This document shows positions 24,971 to 31,284 of a stretch of DNA of 64,000 bases, piece after piece. Location: assembly GCA_014904845.1 (NCBI GenBank), contig MU119211.1, positions 354,156-418,155 of the forward strand, in the 5' to 3' direction. The notes beneath the pieces were generated by a model. The model searched no databases, was not told the DNA's origin, and worked only from the letters and a program-made list of their open reading frames with translations. Position 1 is the stretch's first letter; every line of letters starts with the position of its first letter. This DNA comes from Acephala macrosclerotiorum (taxonomy: Eukaryota > Ascomycota > Leotiomycetes > Helotiales > Mollisiaceae). The position numbers and the translations under genes are program-made.

Positions 24971-25375
24971 TGAGTCCGGCTCTGAGAAGTTCGATATCCA
25001 CAAAGAGCCAGAGCGGTTCGTCAAGGTTATTGCTGGCTATGCACTGATGACAGATGCGGAACTAGGTTTGAACACATTCATCAATCGTGATAGGACAGGC
25101 AAGTACATCGTCGCGGCCCGAGTGAGGATCTCTCTGGAGAACAAGCCGATCTCCTCGACAAAAGCGATAGTGTGCAGAGGAACAACATGCTGTCGAGGAA
25201 GGAGAAGTGATTCAACGGGGTGGGAGTATGTGGCCAAGTTTGCTTGGCCGTCTGATAAGAGGCAACGGGAGGGAAGGTTATTGAAGTTGGCTCGAGAGAG
25301 GAGCCACAGGGGTTTCTGAATGGTTCCATCATGAACAGATTGCAATCGTGACGCTCCTTGATTCACTGAAAGTCC
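24909..25375 (+). pseudogene. Fungal-specific FunK1-type protein kinase, broken fragment
   Basis: From about 24980 the plus strand encodes a stretch very like the start of the FunK1 kinase domain (Pfam PF17667): a GKYI strand, then KAIVCRGTTC, WEYVAKFAW, SDKRQREG and LLKLARERS. The frame ends at a TGA at 25317. The conserved continuation (SEWFHHEQIA) follows at once in another frame, so a frameshift has broken the gene. It then runs out near 25375. The kinase catalytic loop and C-terminal lobe are absent. The fragment overlaps the 3' end of the minus-strand gene 25363-26195 only marginally. FunK1 kinases are multicopy and often decayed in filamentous fungi, so this is most likely a relic of a duplicated or inserted copy. 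Confidence 0.7.
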
Positions 25376-26195
25376 TTTATGAGGTCGTTGGTAATCGGCG
25401 CCTTGGGTTTGCCCCATTTCTCCCTAACTCTCGGTATTCCGGAACCCCTCTTAATCTCCTTGTTGAAACATTCCTTAACCATTTCATCCTCGCAAGTATC
25501 CAACACATCATCTCTCAATAAAAGCTCCCCGTATAGATATCCGAAAGCCCACCCTGACAATTTCACCTGCCAGTTCCGGATGTTGGTGTATTTTCTTTCC
25601 TCTAAGTAAACCGTAATAATACTCCGAAGTAATTCGACTACATTAGGATAGTACAAGTTTCCGTGGACGTAAAATGGTGGTTGTGATGAAGGCTCAGGAG
25701 GAGATGCAGATTCGTGCTTGGACGCAGGTTGAGAAGCGCTTAGACGGAGGTAGCTACTGGGTATAAGAATAGTACGCTGAACAAACTTCTTCTCATTAGG
25801 GTAATGAAACCGAATTGTTTTCGCATCGAAATTCGCAAAAGCAAGCCCGATATTTGTGTGAACGCGTTGGAACATTTCGTCGTCTTTGCGGGTGGCAAGA
25901 TCCATCGTAGAACCAAAGGACCAGTTTTGACGGACGAAGCCTACATCAGCCAGCTTCTTCGCTGCTAGATCCATTTCATCATCGCGTACACCAAGCATAT
26001 AGCACTATAAGTACGCGTTAGAAGAACCCTAAGATAATTATAAGGCAGGAATAGAAAGCAAAGAGTACTTGCACTATGTACCACTGGAACGCCGAGATAG
26101 CGTATTGCGAGATCCCCCCAGACGACTAGCTTAATTGGCTGGAGGATATCCCCAACAAAATCCAACCGCGTTAACTCAGATTCGTATTCCGTCAT
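25363..26195 (-). CDS. Hypothetical fungal protein, weak nucleotidyltransferase-like N-terminus
   Basis: Two exons, 26195-26082 and 26004-25363, give 251 aa from a true ATG. The intron uses a GTACAT donor, a CTAAC branch and a TATAG acceptor; this splice joins GVPV to CYMLGVRDDEM in frame. The opening (VVWGDLAIRYLGVPV, then VRDDEMDLAAKKL) resembles the small fungal proteins with a degenerate nucleotidyltransferase fold, in which a strand with WG and GVP is followed by a helix. I cannot see a complete GS...DxD catalytic site, so activity is doubtful. The C-terminal half has a Ser/Pro-rich insert and no known motif. It stands between the FunK1 relic and the tandem array and is probably lineage-specific. 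It could also be a decayed member of its family. Confidence 0.55.
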
Positions 26196-26305
26196 GACAA
26201 CAGCAGTTTGTGTTAATGAAGGGAAATGATGAATGGAATGTTAAAGTTACTTGCTACGCCTTTTAAGCGAAACAATCGCCTCACTTATTTGCTGTCTGCG
26301 GCAGA

Positions 26306-26334
26306 GATTTTTCTTGCCTGATTTTTCTTGCCTG
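26306..26334 (+). repeat. Short direct repeat
   Basis: Two adjacent copies of ATTTTTCTTGCCTG lie just upstream of the gene starting at 26195. They may be part of its promoter. Confidence 0.7.
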
Positions 26335-26363
26335 ATTCTTGGCAAGGACTACAAAAAGTTGAA

Positions 26364-26400
26364 ACACTAACACTAAAACACTAACACTAACACACTAACA
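26364..26400 (+). repeat. Degenerate CACTAA repeat
   Basis: Five or six copies of ACACTAAC-like units with variable spacing. The reverse complement TTAGTG differs by one base from the fungal telomere unit TTAGGG, but no true TTAGGG copies are present. It could be a microsatellite or a degenerate telomere-like stretch. Confidence 0.75.
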
Positions 26401-26540
26401 GCACCTAGCGATATTAACGTCGTCCATCAAAACACACTCCGTCCGAAAGTTGCTAGCTAGTATGTAACCATTCGAGGATAATATGACTTATTGTTTCTCA
26501 AAAGTCACAACGCGTTTTAAAGTTATTATGGTGAAGCTGA

Positions 26541-26742
26541 GGAGGGTTGGTGCAACAACAATATCCTATCTAAACAAGTTGAAAGGAGGAGGATGGCCTC
26601 ATGGCAACTGGCCTCACGGGGCCGTAGAAGAAGTGGGCAAAGGTGTTAGCCGCGCGCAATCGAACACCTTGGTCAAGCTGACAAGGGATTGGTGCAACAA
26701 GAAATCCTACTTTGAACAAGTGGAAAGGAGGAGGATGCCACC
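26541..26742 (+). repeat. Imperfect direct repeat of about 55 bp
   Basis: Two copies begin near 26545 and 26687. Both contain GGTTGGTGCAACAA or GGATTGGTGCAACAA, then ATCCTA, then AACAAGT-GAAAGGAGGAGGATG. They directly precede the 163-bp tandem array and may be decayed flanks of it. Confidence 0.75.
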
Positions 26743-26744
26743 AA

Positions 26745-28560
26745 CATGATGTTAAGAGAGGGGGTACATTGACATCCGATTGCGCAGAGAGCCGTCCAGA
26801 CTTGTCCGATGAACTTACCTAGTTGCACAGTAGATTACCCATAGATGCTCTCTAACCGAGTAACAGCCGCTTCTTCATCGGATGCCTCTGTCAAAATCCG
26901 ATCACCAACTGATGCTAAGCGAGGGGGGAGGTTGGGATCCGATTGTCTTAACAGCCTTCCAGACTCATCCGATGAACTTGCCCACTTGCACAGGAGACTT
27001 CACATACATGCTCTACATTTCGGTATCAGCCGCTTCTCCATCGGATGCCTCCTTCAAGATCCGTCTAGCAGAAAGAAGCTAAGCGAGGGGGGACATAGAC
27101 ATCCGATGATCCAAAGGACCCCTCCGAACGCATCCGATGAACTTGAGCAGTGGTATAACGGATTTTTTACATATGTGGTTTACTTGAGTAACAACTATTT
27201 CTTCATAGGATACATTCTTCAAGATCAGTCCACCAGGACGAAGCTAAGCGAGGAGAACATTGACATCCGATGGTCTAAAGTACCCCTCCCAACACGTCCG
27301 ATGAACTTGTGCATTTGCGTAGTAATATTCTAATAGACAAGCTTCGTCGGAGAAATGATCTCGTCTTCATCGGATGCCTCCTTCAAGATTCGTCCACCAA
27401 AGCGAAGGGGACATTGGCATCCGATGATCAAAAGAGCCTATCCGAACGCATCCGATGAACTCGTGGAATTTGCGTGGTGATATTTAAACATATACCCTCC
27501 ATCAGACCCTTGGTCTTGCCTTCATCGGATGCCTCCTTCGAAATCCGATCACCAAGAGACGTGTAGGAAGGGAACAAACGGAGAGGTTTGCACCCCGTAG
27601 ACTCATCCGATGGACCTCTCTCATCACGTTACTACGTTTTCAGAGGCTCAGCATCTTTTGATACTACTAGCTTGTTCATCGGATGCCTCTCTCAAAATCC
27701 GATACGCAAAAATGCAGTTAAGCGAGGTGGTTGCTATGGCTTGGTAGACAAAGTGTCTTCACACCCATCCGATGAATATCCCCGGCTGCAAAACCACGTT
27801 ACAAGAGCTCTATTTTCTTCTGAGAACAATCACTTCCTCATCGGACGCCTCCTTCAAAATCCGATACGCAAAACTGGAGCTAAGCGAGGGTGAATAGTGA
27901 TGAACTGGGAGATAAAGTGTCCAAGGACCCATCCGATGGATAAACCCCATTGCTTACCAGCATTTGAGATGGTCTGTTTTCATATGATAGTAGCTTTATG
28001 CTCATCGGATGCTTCCTTCAAAATCCGATACGCAAAATTGAAGCTAAGCGAGGGATTCTAAGGTGAACTGAGCTCTCACTTGTCTGAAACCCCATCCGAT
28101 GAGCTTCTCTTGCTGGATACAAACTTTTCAGAGGCTTATTTATGACGCCTGAGGAGCCTTTATCCATCGGATGAGTGATACAAAATCCGATACGCAAAAT
28201 CACAGCTAAGCGAGGAGGACATCGGAGGATTAATATTCAACTTCAAGAACGCATCCGATGGACTTTTCCTGATGTGGGTAAACCTTCGAAAGTACCTTGA
28301 TCATAATCACAATTTTGCATTTCCCATTGGATGGCTCCTACAAAATCCGATCACCAAAGTCAAGCTAAGCGAGGGAACTCGCTTCGAGGACAGACATCGA
28401 AAGATTGGGATATCGGATTACTGGAAGGGCTTATCAACTTCTCTCGTTGTATGGCACCTTTTAGAAGGATTATCTATAGTCTGGTAAAGCCATATTTGCC
28501 ATCGGACGGCTCTTGCGAAATCCGATACGCAAAATTTGACTTAAGCGAGGGGTCCTTTCT
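26745..28560 (+). repeat. Tandem array of ~163-bp units with paired CATCCGATG / CATCGGATG motifs
   Basis: CATCGGATG or a close variant starts at 26876, 27039, 27204, 27368, 27523, 27677, 27839, 28003, 28165, 28325 and 28500. Its reverse complement CATCCGATG starts at 26804, 26966, 27131, 27295, 27449, 27604, 27766, 27930, 28093 and 28252. The distance from each CATCCGATG to the next CATCGGATG is 72-74 bp every time, while the return distance varies from 81 to 92 bp. Twenty bases after each CATCGGATG start comes ATCCGAT, often followed by ACGCAAAA and, about 10 bases on, AGCTAAGCGAGG. The sequence between these blocks is largely different from unit to unit. Units 1-4 carry an extra CATCCGAT after GCGAGG that later units lack. 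The last unit lacks its 5' partner and the first is partial. Frames through the array contain stops and shift between units, so it is probably not a working gene. Confidence 0.9.
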
Positions 28561-29070
28561 AGGAGGGGAAATTCGAGCTGCGACAAACTTGACTGCTAAG
28601 CGTACAGCAGTGCCTCCTGTAGGCTTGGCATACATTGAATACATCTATAAATTCATTGGGAAGGAACTGGATGTCCTGCACACACTGTGTGTGGGACTTT
28701 TGAGGGGTCAGAGTGGTGGTCGAAAGCATGTGAGTGGAGAGAAAAGAAGGGCAAGAGAGGCTAGCATGAAATCAAAACAACACAGCTCGCAAATTGATAC
28801 GACAGCGCAAATTTAAAATCAAAGAACAATTTGGCACTTGCTATTCACGTCAACCGAGTGGTCGCCGTCTTCATGAATGGTGTTTTCGTGAAAGAGTATC
28901 CTGTCAGGCCTCGCCGCCGAGATTTGAACTCGTGAGGCCTCGCTGATGCCTCCGCGGCACTTGCACGGAGACGTCGTGAACTTGTTCATCCTCAATCCAC
29001 GTGTCCAGCTTCATGTTGCAAGCTCAAACCCCACAAACTCTGAAGAAATAGCTTCATTCCGAACACCTCT
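28561..29070. other. Spacer between the tandem array and the glycosidase gene
   Basis: The plus strand stays open from 28331 to 28816 through the last array unit, but there is no family motif. On the minus strand near 28925 the sequence GAGTTCAAATCTC resembles a tRNA T-arm, with no matching rest of a tRNA. Otherwise nothing is seen. Confidence 0.4.
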
Positions 29071-31284
29071 CTACATCGCCCTCGTAAACCCCTCACTTCT
29101 CACCGCCCACCCCTCCGGCCAAGCACTCACCCCCTCCCCACCATCCCAGCCCCCCGCCATCACCGCAACAGCTAGCAACAAACTCCCACTCCCCGGCATA
29201 TACGGCGTCGCCACCCTCGGACCACCAACTGGATACCCCGCATCATCAAACACAAAATTCGAATCTAGTAAATACCCCGCTGCTTTTTCCAGCTCACCAA
29301 GTCTCGCTGCGTTCATAGCTAGCATTGGAAAATCCCATCCGAAGAGTTGGGTGAAGTCCCATATTCCGGCAATCTTTGAGGCGGTGTTGGACATTATGGT
29401 GAGGTTGAAAGATGGGGTGGATGGAGGGGGTAAAAGGCCGTAAATCCCGGTCATGGCGGGGTGGTCGTAGTACGTGTTTGGGTCTATCCACATGTTTGGA
29501 ATTCCTTCATAGATTGTATAGGTCCCGTTTTGAATCGGGAGAGGAGCGAGGTTTTGAAGGACGTGCGTCCAATTCGCTGGAATGGGGAGATGTTGTCTTT
29601 CTTTCCAGGAAGAGGCGATGGAGAGGCCGAAACGCCAGTATGCGAGTTCGAAGGTCGGGTTGGTTGTTGTGTTTGGGTTGGTGTTTTCCGATACTGGGTA
29701 CATTGGTGGTCCGAGATCGTAGACTCCTATTTTCACATCAGCTGTTTTTATAAAGGAGAAAGAAAAGAGGGTACCTGTCGAGCTATTCCAAAAAGCAAAG
29801 CTCACCATAAACTCAGCTGTCCACGTCAACAACTCATCCCACTTCCCCAACGTCTCCTCACAAGGAAAATCCCTCCACTCCATCTCAGCAAAATACATAA
29901 CATGCGGCTGCTGCCAAATCAAAAGACTGTTAATCTCGCCCGGCGCACTTCTTCCCGTCGGATCACTCATCTTCCCCCATCTCGCTCCCTCATACCCTTG
30001 CAATCTCGCCCTCTCTATCGAACTTGGGAGAAATCGTTCATACATTCCTGGGATAGCTCTTCCAAGTAAGTCCCACTTTCCCCATCGTGCCCAATGCCCT
30101 AAGTGCCAGACGGGCATTTCGAGGTGGAATTTCCCGTACCAGCCGTTGTTTACGAGGCCGGATTCTTGGGGCGGGTCATGGCCGGCTCTGTTGACGGCGA
30201 GGAGGTATTGGGAAAGGATGATTCGACGTTGAAGCTCGGTTGCGTTAGAGTTGTAGGAAGAAGTTAAGTCGATGAAGGCTCCTGACTCCCAGTACTGTTG
30301 CCACCAACTCTCAGATGAAGATGTAGTCGAATCTGCATCTGGAACTTCTTCTACCTGTGTTGGGGAGAAATTGACGCTCAAATCCAAACTGCTTCCAGAC
30401 CCAGATTTTGTTTCGAGGATATAGCGATGCGTCCCGTTCGTCGGCCCAGAAATCGAAGCCACACCATCCCATACGATCGAAGTATAATACGTTGTATCAT
30501 CAATCTCGTGCTTAATGCTCGCCTTGCTCTCGCTCTGTTGCAAACTTGTCGTATGCTCGCTTGTCACGTTCCAAACGCCCACAAACGGAGCATCAAACTT
30601 ATTCACATCCGAATAAGGGTAATCAAAGAACACCCCAATCTTGCCCTCATCTAATAGTTCAGACTCGGCTTGAATAGAAACAGTATCTGAATCTGGGTCA
30701 ACAGCGGTCTTAACCTTGACATCTTTGCCGAGGACGGAGAACTGAGACGTGAGAATCCCGGAATAGAGGTCTAAAGTCTGGGATTTTGACGAGAGACTGG
30801 ATTCCGTGATGTTAAGGACGGGATCGAAATGGAAGCCTATCCTTCCCAAGTTCAGCCTTTGCGGATTCTGAATCAACCAATTCGAGATCAATGGTTCGGC
30901 AGGGTTGGGTTGGTCGTAATTAACCAACCTTCCGTGGGTCCACCTATTCATCGCTTATTAGTTCACCCTCTTTCTTCCTCAAAGATAGAAGATCTCACCA
31001 ATCCAATCCGGTGAAGTCTGCCGTAGAAGTCTATTTGCAGCTGTTGGTAATGAGAAGTTATGCCAGCCCCATGAGGATAGGGTGTTGAAGGGTAGGAAGG
31101 TTTGGAGACCGGTGATGTCTGCTCCGAATGCGAAATTGCCGTTGCCTACTTGCACGGGGGTTGAGTTTGAGCTGGCGTGGCGGATGGGGTTGAATTGAGT
31201 GATTACTGCTTTGCGGTCTATGGGAGCAGAAATGGCTATGGCTCCCACGCCGAGAGTGAAGGCGAAGATAGTTGTGGGTTTCAT
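29071..31284 (-). CDS. Secreted six-hairpin (alpha/alpha-barrel) glycosidase-like protein
   Basis: Three exons: 31284-30999, 30953-29775 and 29726-29071, giving 706 aa. The ATG at 31284 opens a clear signal peptide (KPTTIFAFTLGVGAIAISAP). A conserved opening follows (PVQVGNGNFAFGADITGLQTF, SSWGWHNF), then a beta-rich N-terminal domain to about residue 300. The long C-terminal part has the Trp/Tyr-rich helical hairpins seen in GH65/GH95-like enzymes (NRAGHDPP, MPVWHLGHWARWG, GEINSLLIWQQPH, GVYDLGPPMYP, GWDFPMLAMNAARLG). About ten NxT/S sites fit secretion. The sugar specificity is not readable, and I am not certain of the CAZy family. The second intron (48 nt) has no stop and is a multiple of three, so retention would only insert 16 residues. 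The first intron is short (45 nt), so its acceptor is the least secure point of the model. Confidence 0.72.

Follow-up and report, generated by a model that had tools for sequence, protein, structure and literature searches.

Gene content and layout of the array locus

The window, by which we mean the whole 64-kb stretch of DNA that was analysed, carries an array of eleven tandem units and one truncated unit in a non-coding stretch at 26735-28550 (Table 1). The array is intergenic: the start of a minus-strand gene, near 26195, lies on one side of it, and the 3' end of a minus-strand ORF, at 29071, lies on the other. Other ORFs of the window include an amino-acid kinase/N-acetylglutamate-synthase-type/semialdehyde dehydrogenase ORF, a GH76 enzyme, an isopropylmalate-synthase type and an importin-beta, and this gene content, together with the introns placed by eye, is fungus-like. 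All gene models were drawn by eye.

The 627-aa ORF looks enzyme-like by eye. Neither this ORF nor the minus-strand gene on the other side of the array gave a Pfam match above the cut-off or a PDB match. Paralogues of the two genes accompanied by arrays of their own were considered and dismissed, since neither gene has a second match in its own genome at E 0.001. Two short tandem repeats (of the GATTTTTCTTGCCT and AAACACTAACACTA types) were found at 26306-26400, a short way upstream of where the minus-strand gene is inferred to begin.

Table 1. Units of the array and the two flanking genes (positions in the window; box positions are first letters)
Feature	Position	Strand	Boxes and basis
Minus-strand gene, 5' end facing the array	25363-26195	-	ORF 25363-26004 plus an upstream exon from near 26195, by eye
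Unit 0, truncated	26735-26762	+	D-region tail and degenerate E box AAGAGAGG; sequence, alignment, by eye
Unit 1	26763-26924	+	A 26773 (CATCCGATT), B 26803 (TGTCCGATG), C 26876, D 26895, E 26917
Unit 2	26925-27088	+	A 26936 (GATCCGATT), B 26966, C 27039, D decayed, E 27081
Unit 3	27089-27253	+	A 27100, B 27131, C 27204 decayed (CATAGGATA), D decayed, E 27246
Unit 4	27254-27407	+	A 27264, B 27295 (CGTCCGATG), C 27368, D decayed, E 27400 partly deleted (AAGCGAAG)
Unit 5	27408-27572	+	A 27418, B 27449, C 27523 (74 from B), D 27542, E degenerate
Unit 6	27573-27727	+	no A, B 27604, C 27677, D 27696, E 27720
Unit 7	27728-27889	+	no A, B 27766, C 27839 (CATCGGACG), D 27858, E 27882
Unit 8	27890-28053	+	no A, B 27930, C 28003, D 28022, E 28046
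Unit 9	28054-28215	+	no A, B 28093, C 28165 (72 from B), D 28184, E 28208
Unit 10	28216-28374	+	flipped-centre CATCGGAGG 28220 in the place of A, B 28252, C 28325 (CATTGGATG), D 28344, E 28367
Unit 11	28375-28550	+	flipped-centre TATCGGATT 28411, C 28500 (CATCGGACG) 89 bp on, D 28519, E 28543
627-aa ORF, 3' end facing the array	29071-30954	-	ORF call

On the plus strand, each unit reads as a poorly kept region, box B, a spacer, box C, ten nucleotides, box D and an end box E; in units 1-5 the poorly kept region holds an extra site, A. Box B (CATCCGATG) is exact in eight of the eleven units, box C (CATCGGATG) in seven, and box D (AATCCGAT), a further copy of the same core, in eight, while the end box contains AAGCGAGG in nine. 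C is inverted relative to A, B and D, which all face the same way, with exceptions in units 10 (the A-like site) and 11 (the B-like site), where the centre base is flipped. The core, ATC-S-GAT, is palindromic except at its centre, and the centre base is kept and strongly oriented, indicating that recognition is oriented or that both orientations matter.

All the blocks named in the original prediction are present. Its count of ten or eleven units is settled at eleven plus the truncated one, and its spacings of 154-175 bp narrow to 154-165 bp from start to start; the claimed 175 is absent from the B-to-B spacings, which run 163, 165, 164, 154, 155, 162, 164, 163, 159 and 159. Three features go beyond what it described, namely the near-fixed distance between B and C, the constant distance of 19 between C and D in all eleven units, and the identity of D as another copy of the same core. 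Additionally, two 52-nt copies (26544-26595 and 26686-26737, plus strand), 79% alike and 142 bp apart, adjoin the array; they are perhaps older degenerate units or a separate duplication.

Enrichment of sites within the array

Nonamers with at most one mismatch from CATCCGATG/CATCGGATG occur 24 times in 1.83 kb, whereas 200 mononucleotide shuffles averaged 0.335 and reached at most 4. Exact ATC[CG]GAT cores number 29 in the array, compared with 9 elsewhere in the window. When the eleven units were used to build a C-D block profile, they scored 36-53 against it; the runner-up in the 64 kb, at 27907 on the opposite strand but still within the array, scores 8.1, and no place outside the array exceeds 1.9. 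Because the profile was trained on the units themselves, the informative part of this result is the emptiness of the rest of the 64 kb. Homotypic clusters of transcription-factor sites have many near-identical short sites per region, separated by drifting spacers, and the array likewise packs many copies of one motif, far above chance, into a short region.

Conservation of the boxes and drift of the spacers

Box and spacer statistics were computed without gaps on the eight units of equal B-C length, with units 5, 9 and 11 omitted for their differing B-C length. Among these eight of the eleven units, mean between-unit identity is 0.92 for B, 0.89 for C, 0.79 for the C-D linker and 0.74 for D, compared with 0.42 for the spacer and 0.26 for random sequence. 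Parsimony changes per position rise in the same order in the eight units, from 0.33 (B) and 0.44 (C) through 0.9 (C-D linker) and 1.0 (D) to 2.66 (spacer), and none of 20,000 random draws of 18 columns from them was as conserved as B and C together. By this measure, the spacers are homologous yet far diverged (0.42 against 0.26). Sites are thus kept and spacers are not, as in homotypic clusters, in the comparison between eight of the eleven units.

In the alignment, the closest pairs of units are neighbours: 1/2 (74%), 4/5 (75%), 3/4 (68%) and 7/8 (68%). Because of the between-unit identities and the closeness of neighbouring units, the array is best read, from the alignment, as an old tandem duplication in which the spacers are drifting and the boxes have been held. 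The original prediction that only the blocks are kept is true in the main, with the reservation that some isolated columns of the spacer do not vary either among the eight compared units; its proposal that selection acts on the blocks is supported by the between-unit comparison. Decay by C-to-T changes alone was rejected. C-to-T-biased decay is the signature expected of RIP-like mutation, and the 71 transitions and 61 transversions counted in five unit pairs carry no such signature.

An old tandem duplication could also be a relic without present function, its boxes surviving by chance, as mutational cold spots or through local conversion. The closeness of neighbouring units is what plain tandem duplication predicts, several boxes have decayed (units 3, 4, 5 and 11), and no second locus was found, all of which is consistent with a relic. 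However, the contrast between boxes and spacers is hard to obtain without selection, and conversion tracts of 9 bp at a fixed distance of 73 bp are implausible, so we regard a functionless relic as quite unlikely.

Spacing of the boxes and helical phase

The B-to-C distances of units 1-11 are 73, 73, 73, 73, 74, 73, 73, 73, 72, 73 and 89, the B-C spacer being 64 nt in eight of the eleven, and the 19 between C and D holds even in units with a decayed D. Distances elsewhere vary more: E to the following B is 44-50, and C to E is 41-43, with a single deletion to 32 and no clear E in unit 5. Events and lengths were counted by hand from the spacing table. Three of the eleven length changes fall in the ~74 nt of B to D and eight in the ~52 nt elsewhere (binomial p 0.036; p 0.015 with unit 11 excluded). 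The fixed spacing is no more than suggestive.

The 29 cores are phased at 10.24 bp with an R of 0.61, compared with best values of 0.26-0.49 in six other period ranges. This phasing has a p of 0.00025 against uniform sites, of 0.11, 0.018 and 0.013 against jitter of 3, 5 and 8 bp, respectively, and of 0.067 against permuted unit lengths; at 10.5 bp the R of all cores is 0.12. B sites alone reach 0.73 at 10-11 bp (p 0.045-0.095), and 0.71 at 8-9 bp and 0.72 at 9-10 bp. A 10-bp A/T periodicity is weak (p 0.03). Helical phasing is suggestive here, borderline and post hoc, and at most a lead.

These periodicities bear on the possibility that the array is an element of chromosome architecture, in which sites for a Myb-like or other factor would arrest replication forks, insulate, or phase nucleosomes, in the manner of RTS1 or an insulator array. 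The nucleosome repeat length is close to the ~163-bp unit, and the 10.24-bp phasing of the cores and the weak A/T periodicity point the same way. The layout of repeated motifs also resembles region B of RTS1 (PMC10473836). Against this stand the borderline and post hoc character of the phasing tests and the behaviour of B alone, for which periods of 8-9 and 9-10 bp fit about as well as 10-11 bp. An architectural role of this kind appears rather unlikely.

Pairing and coding potential of the units

The opposite orientation of B and C would allow each unit to fold into a B-C hairpin with a 64-nt loop, and a transcribed, non-coding array of such hairpins could serve as a repeated scaffold for an RNA-binding protein. 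The Xist A-repeat has conserved repeated cores between variable spacers, and the array shares this arrangement; it differs from the A-repeat in its longer spacers. In favour of an RNA, B and C are complementary, with 91.8% of cells paired compared with 16-46% after a shift of the partner by 1-3 columns, a contrast that is expected when the structure comes from the same alignment. The loop length is nearly fixed, and folding z-scores fall below -3 in three of the eleven units (5, 6 and 9), on both strands.

The remaining eight units, however, have plus-strand z-scores between +1.1 and -2.3. The pairing of B with C is no better than that of partners shuffled among units (442 of 500 shuffles equalled or exceeded the observed value), which is a weak test where the boxes vary so little. 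Likewise, one of 110 cells in the stem is changed on both sides and all covariation measures lie below the means of shuffled partners, the boxes being nearly invariant. The covariation term of RNAalifold is unfavourable (+0.58), and units 3 and 7 have uncompensated B-C mismatches. An Rfam search of 25000-30000 returned one weak match (E 1.4, 21.3 bits against a cut-off of 70) and nothing credible, and a tRNA scan of the 64-kb window likewise found nothing credible. These comparisons, weak as the test is, suggest that the sequence rather than pairing as such is kept in B and C, and we consider an RNA array unlikely.

A decayed protein-coding repeat gene was also weighed. One plus-strand frame is free of stops over 34 codons in six of the eleven units (p 0.0045 before correction for six frames and shared descent), and another reads as a SSDASFKIRYAKL-like peptide in units 6-8, with a synonymous share of 0.37 in its C-D block, the highest of the six frames. 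Nevertheless, no frame is open in all units: the stop-free units per frame are 4, 1 and 6 on the plus strand and 1, 0 and 2 on the minus strand, out of 11, where the random expectation is 0.166 per unit. A three-base period of variation is absent from both the spacer (p 0.60) and the block (p 0.50), the synonymous share of the spacer is 6-11% in all six frames, and most unit lengths are not multiples of three. With neither a shared open frame nor a three-base pattern of substitution, a protein-coding tandem repeat was rejected, and descent from a decayed repeat gene is very improbable.

Occurrence of the array and its motifs in the genome

In the 69.66-Mb genome (778 contigs), in which the window occupies 354156-418155 of contig C10, the whole array and both flanks match themselves alone, and queries with single units (unit 8 and a piece of units 2-3) match this array alone. 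Because these searches skip very common words and score the best candidates, divergent relatives could be missed. The hundreds of dispersed copies that, according to the original prediction, would speak against it were looked for in the organism's own genome, and one locus was found. A satellite or transposon, for which multiple copies or arrays in the genome would be expected, was accordingly set aside, within the reach of these searches.

For the exact B-C pair (gap 60-75), the genome has five matches, all inside the array and each recorded on both strands. With at most two mismatches, the C-D pattern has 19 matches genome-wide, of which eight lie in the array and 11 are scattered on other contigs; the reversed pattern has three, and about ten are expected by arithmetic. 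Two of the scattered matches, C159:61107 and C127:39495 (one and two mismatches, respectively), are alike in the linker as well and are perhaps copies of another repeat. Of the 131 genomic matches to the shorter motif CATCCGATGA, 12 are in the array; its reversed control has 42, and ~133 are expected from genome size by arithmetic. No second cluster of it was seen by eye among the 88 outside places listed (of 119), and the closest outside pair among the matches listed is 4.4 kb apart, on contig C13.

The 12-mer AGCTAAGCGAGG of the E box has 33 genome matches, six of them in the array, and its reversed control has eight. Six of 20 examined places outside the array (of 27) share sequence around the 12-mer. 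These surroundings are, from their shared sequence, those of a dispersed repeat with a different context, unrelated to the array as far as seen, and this repeat accounts for part of the genome-wide excess of AGCTAAGCGAGG. The E box was rejected as a genome-wide element; none of the 20 two-kb outside pieces holds more than one ATC[CG]GAT. In addition, the C-D block had no matches in viral contigs, and a bacterial-type promoter scan stayed at chance level, a method that is not informative for a eukaryote. Among the literature matches listed, no description of such an array was found by title or abstract start, and no title on fungal repeats was found for CATCCGATG/CATCGGATG.

A putative platform for a DNA-binding protein

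Of the roles put forward in the original prediction, a DNA-binding platform fits best, and a decayed repeat gene is without convincing coding support. We propose that the array is a homotypic cluster in which one sequence-specific DNA-binding protein would recognise ~30 near-identical putative sites, (G)CATCCGATGA or its complement, a reading to which we attach about an even chance. It shares with known homotypic clusters the many near-identical short sites in one intergenic region, the drifting spacers and possible site turnover, but differs from them in its regular ~163-bp tandem arrangement, its near-fixed inverted pair and the lack of a second clustered locus among those seen.

According to this proposal, the array would have grown by tandem duplication of a ~163-bp unit. 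As the spacers drifted, selection would have held the sites and, less strongly, the B-C distance. The protein would bind DNA and not RNA, and cooperative or dimeric binding across 73 bp would account for the spacing. The candidate target is the minus-strand gene with its start near 26195, at a distance of ~0.54-2.4 kb; its expression would be what the platform controls, the array being perhaps a distal regulatory array. Site A accompanies a decayed D in units 2-4 but also an intact D in units 1 and 5. This pattern and the flipped-centre sites of units 10 and 11 could reflect site turnover.

Several points count against a binding platform. A single clustered target locus would be unusual for a protein, a symmetric dimer would have no need of the strong orientation seen at the centre base, and genome-wide over-representation of CATCCGATGA is in doubt given its 131 matches against ~133 expected and 42 in the reversed control.

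Several known systems resemble the array in part. Region B of the RTS1 fork barrier of S. pombe consists of repeated motifs at a single locus that are bound by the Myb-domain protein Rtf1 (PMC10473836). The likeness is one of architecture: both are single-locus arrays of repeated motifs, whereas RTS1 has four motifs in ~450 bp and a purine-rich region A of ~60 bp (PMC10473836), and the present array has eleven units. The consensus ATCWGATAA of SreA, the fungal iron GATA-factor (PMC3305660), shares the ATC-N-GAT core with our sites. It differs in its centre and flank: all 29 exact ATCNGAT cores of the array have C or G at the centre, and their flank is not AA. Iron GATA-factor sites were therefore rejected, because none of the 29 cores has A or T at the centre. 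A binding table in the same paper lists an SrbA site, ATCGGATCAT, which shares ATCGGAT with the array core (PMC3305660); this likeness in sequence is a lead only.

A more specific form of the binding platform may be considered, that of a locus-specific chromatin platform. Its ~eleven units of nucleosome length would each present an inverted pair of sites, 73 bp apart (~seven helical turns, or half a nucleosome), on one face, kept by selection on both sites and spacing and read by one dedicated protein, as a silencer, fork barrier or locus-control element. We found no description of such a platform in the literature searched, and in this specific form it is improbable.

Should the array be a relic, it would be a warning that conserved boxes in arrays call for data from sister species. 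If the platform reading is true, a comparison of the eleven paralogous units, whose spacers have diverged far, reveals the bases and the distance that the binding protein requires. Confined to one locus of a fungus and removable in one piece, the array would then offer a clean test of what regular, nucleosome-length clusters of sites do.
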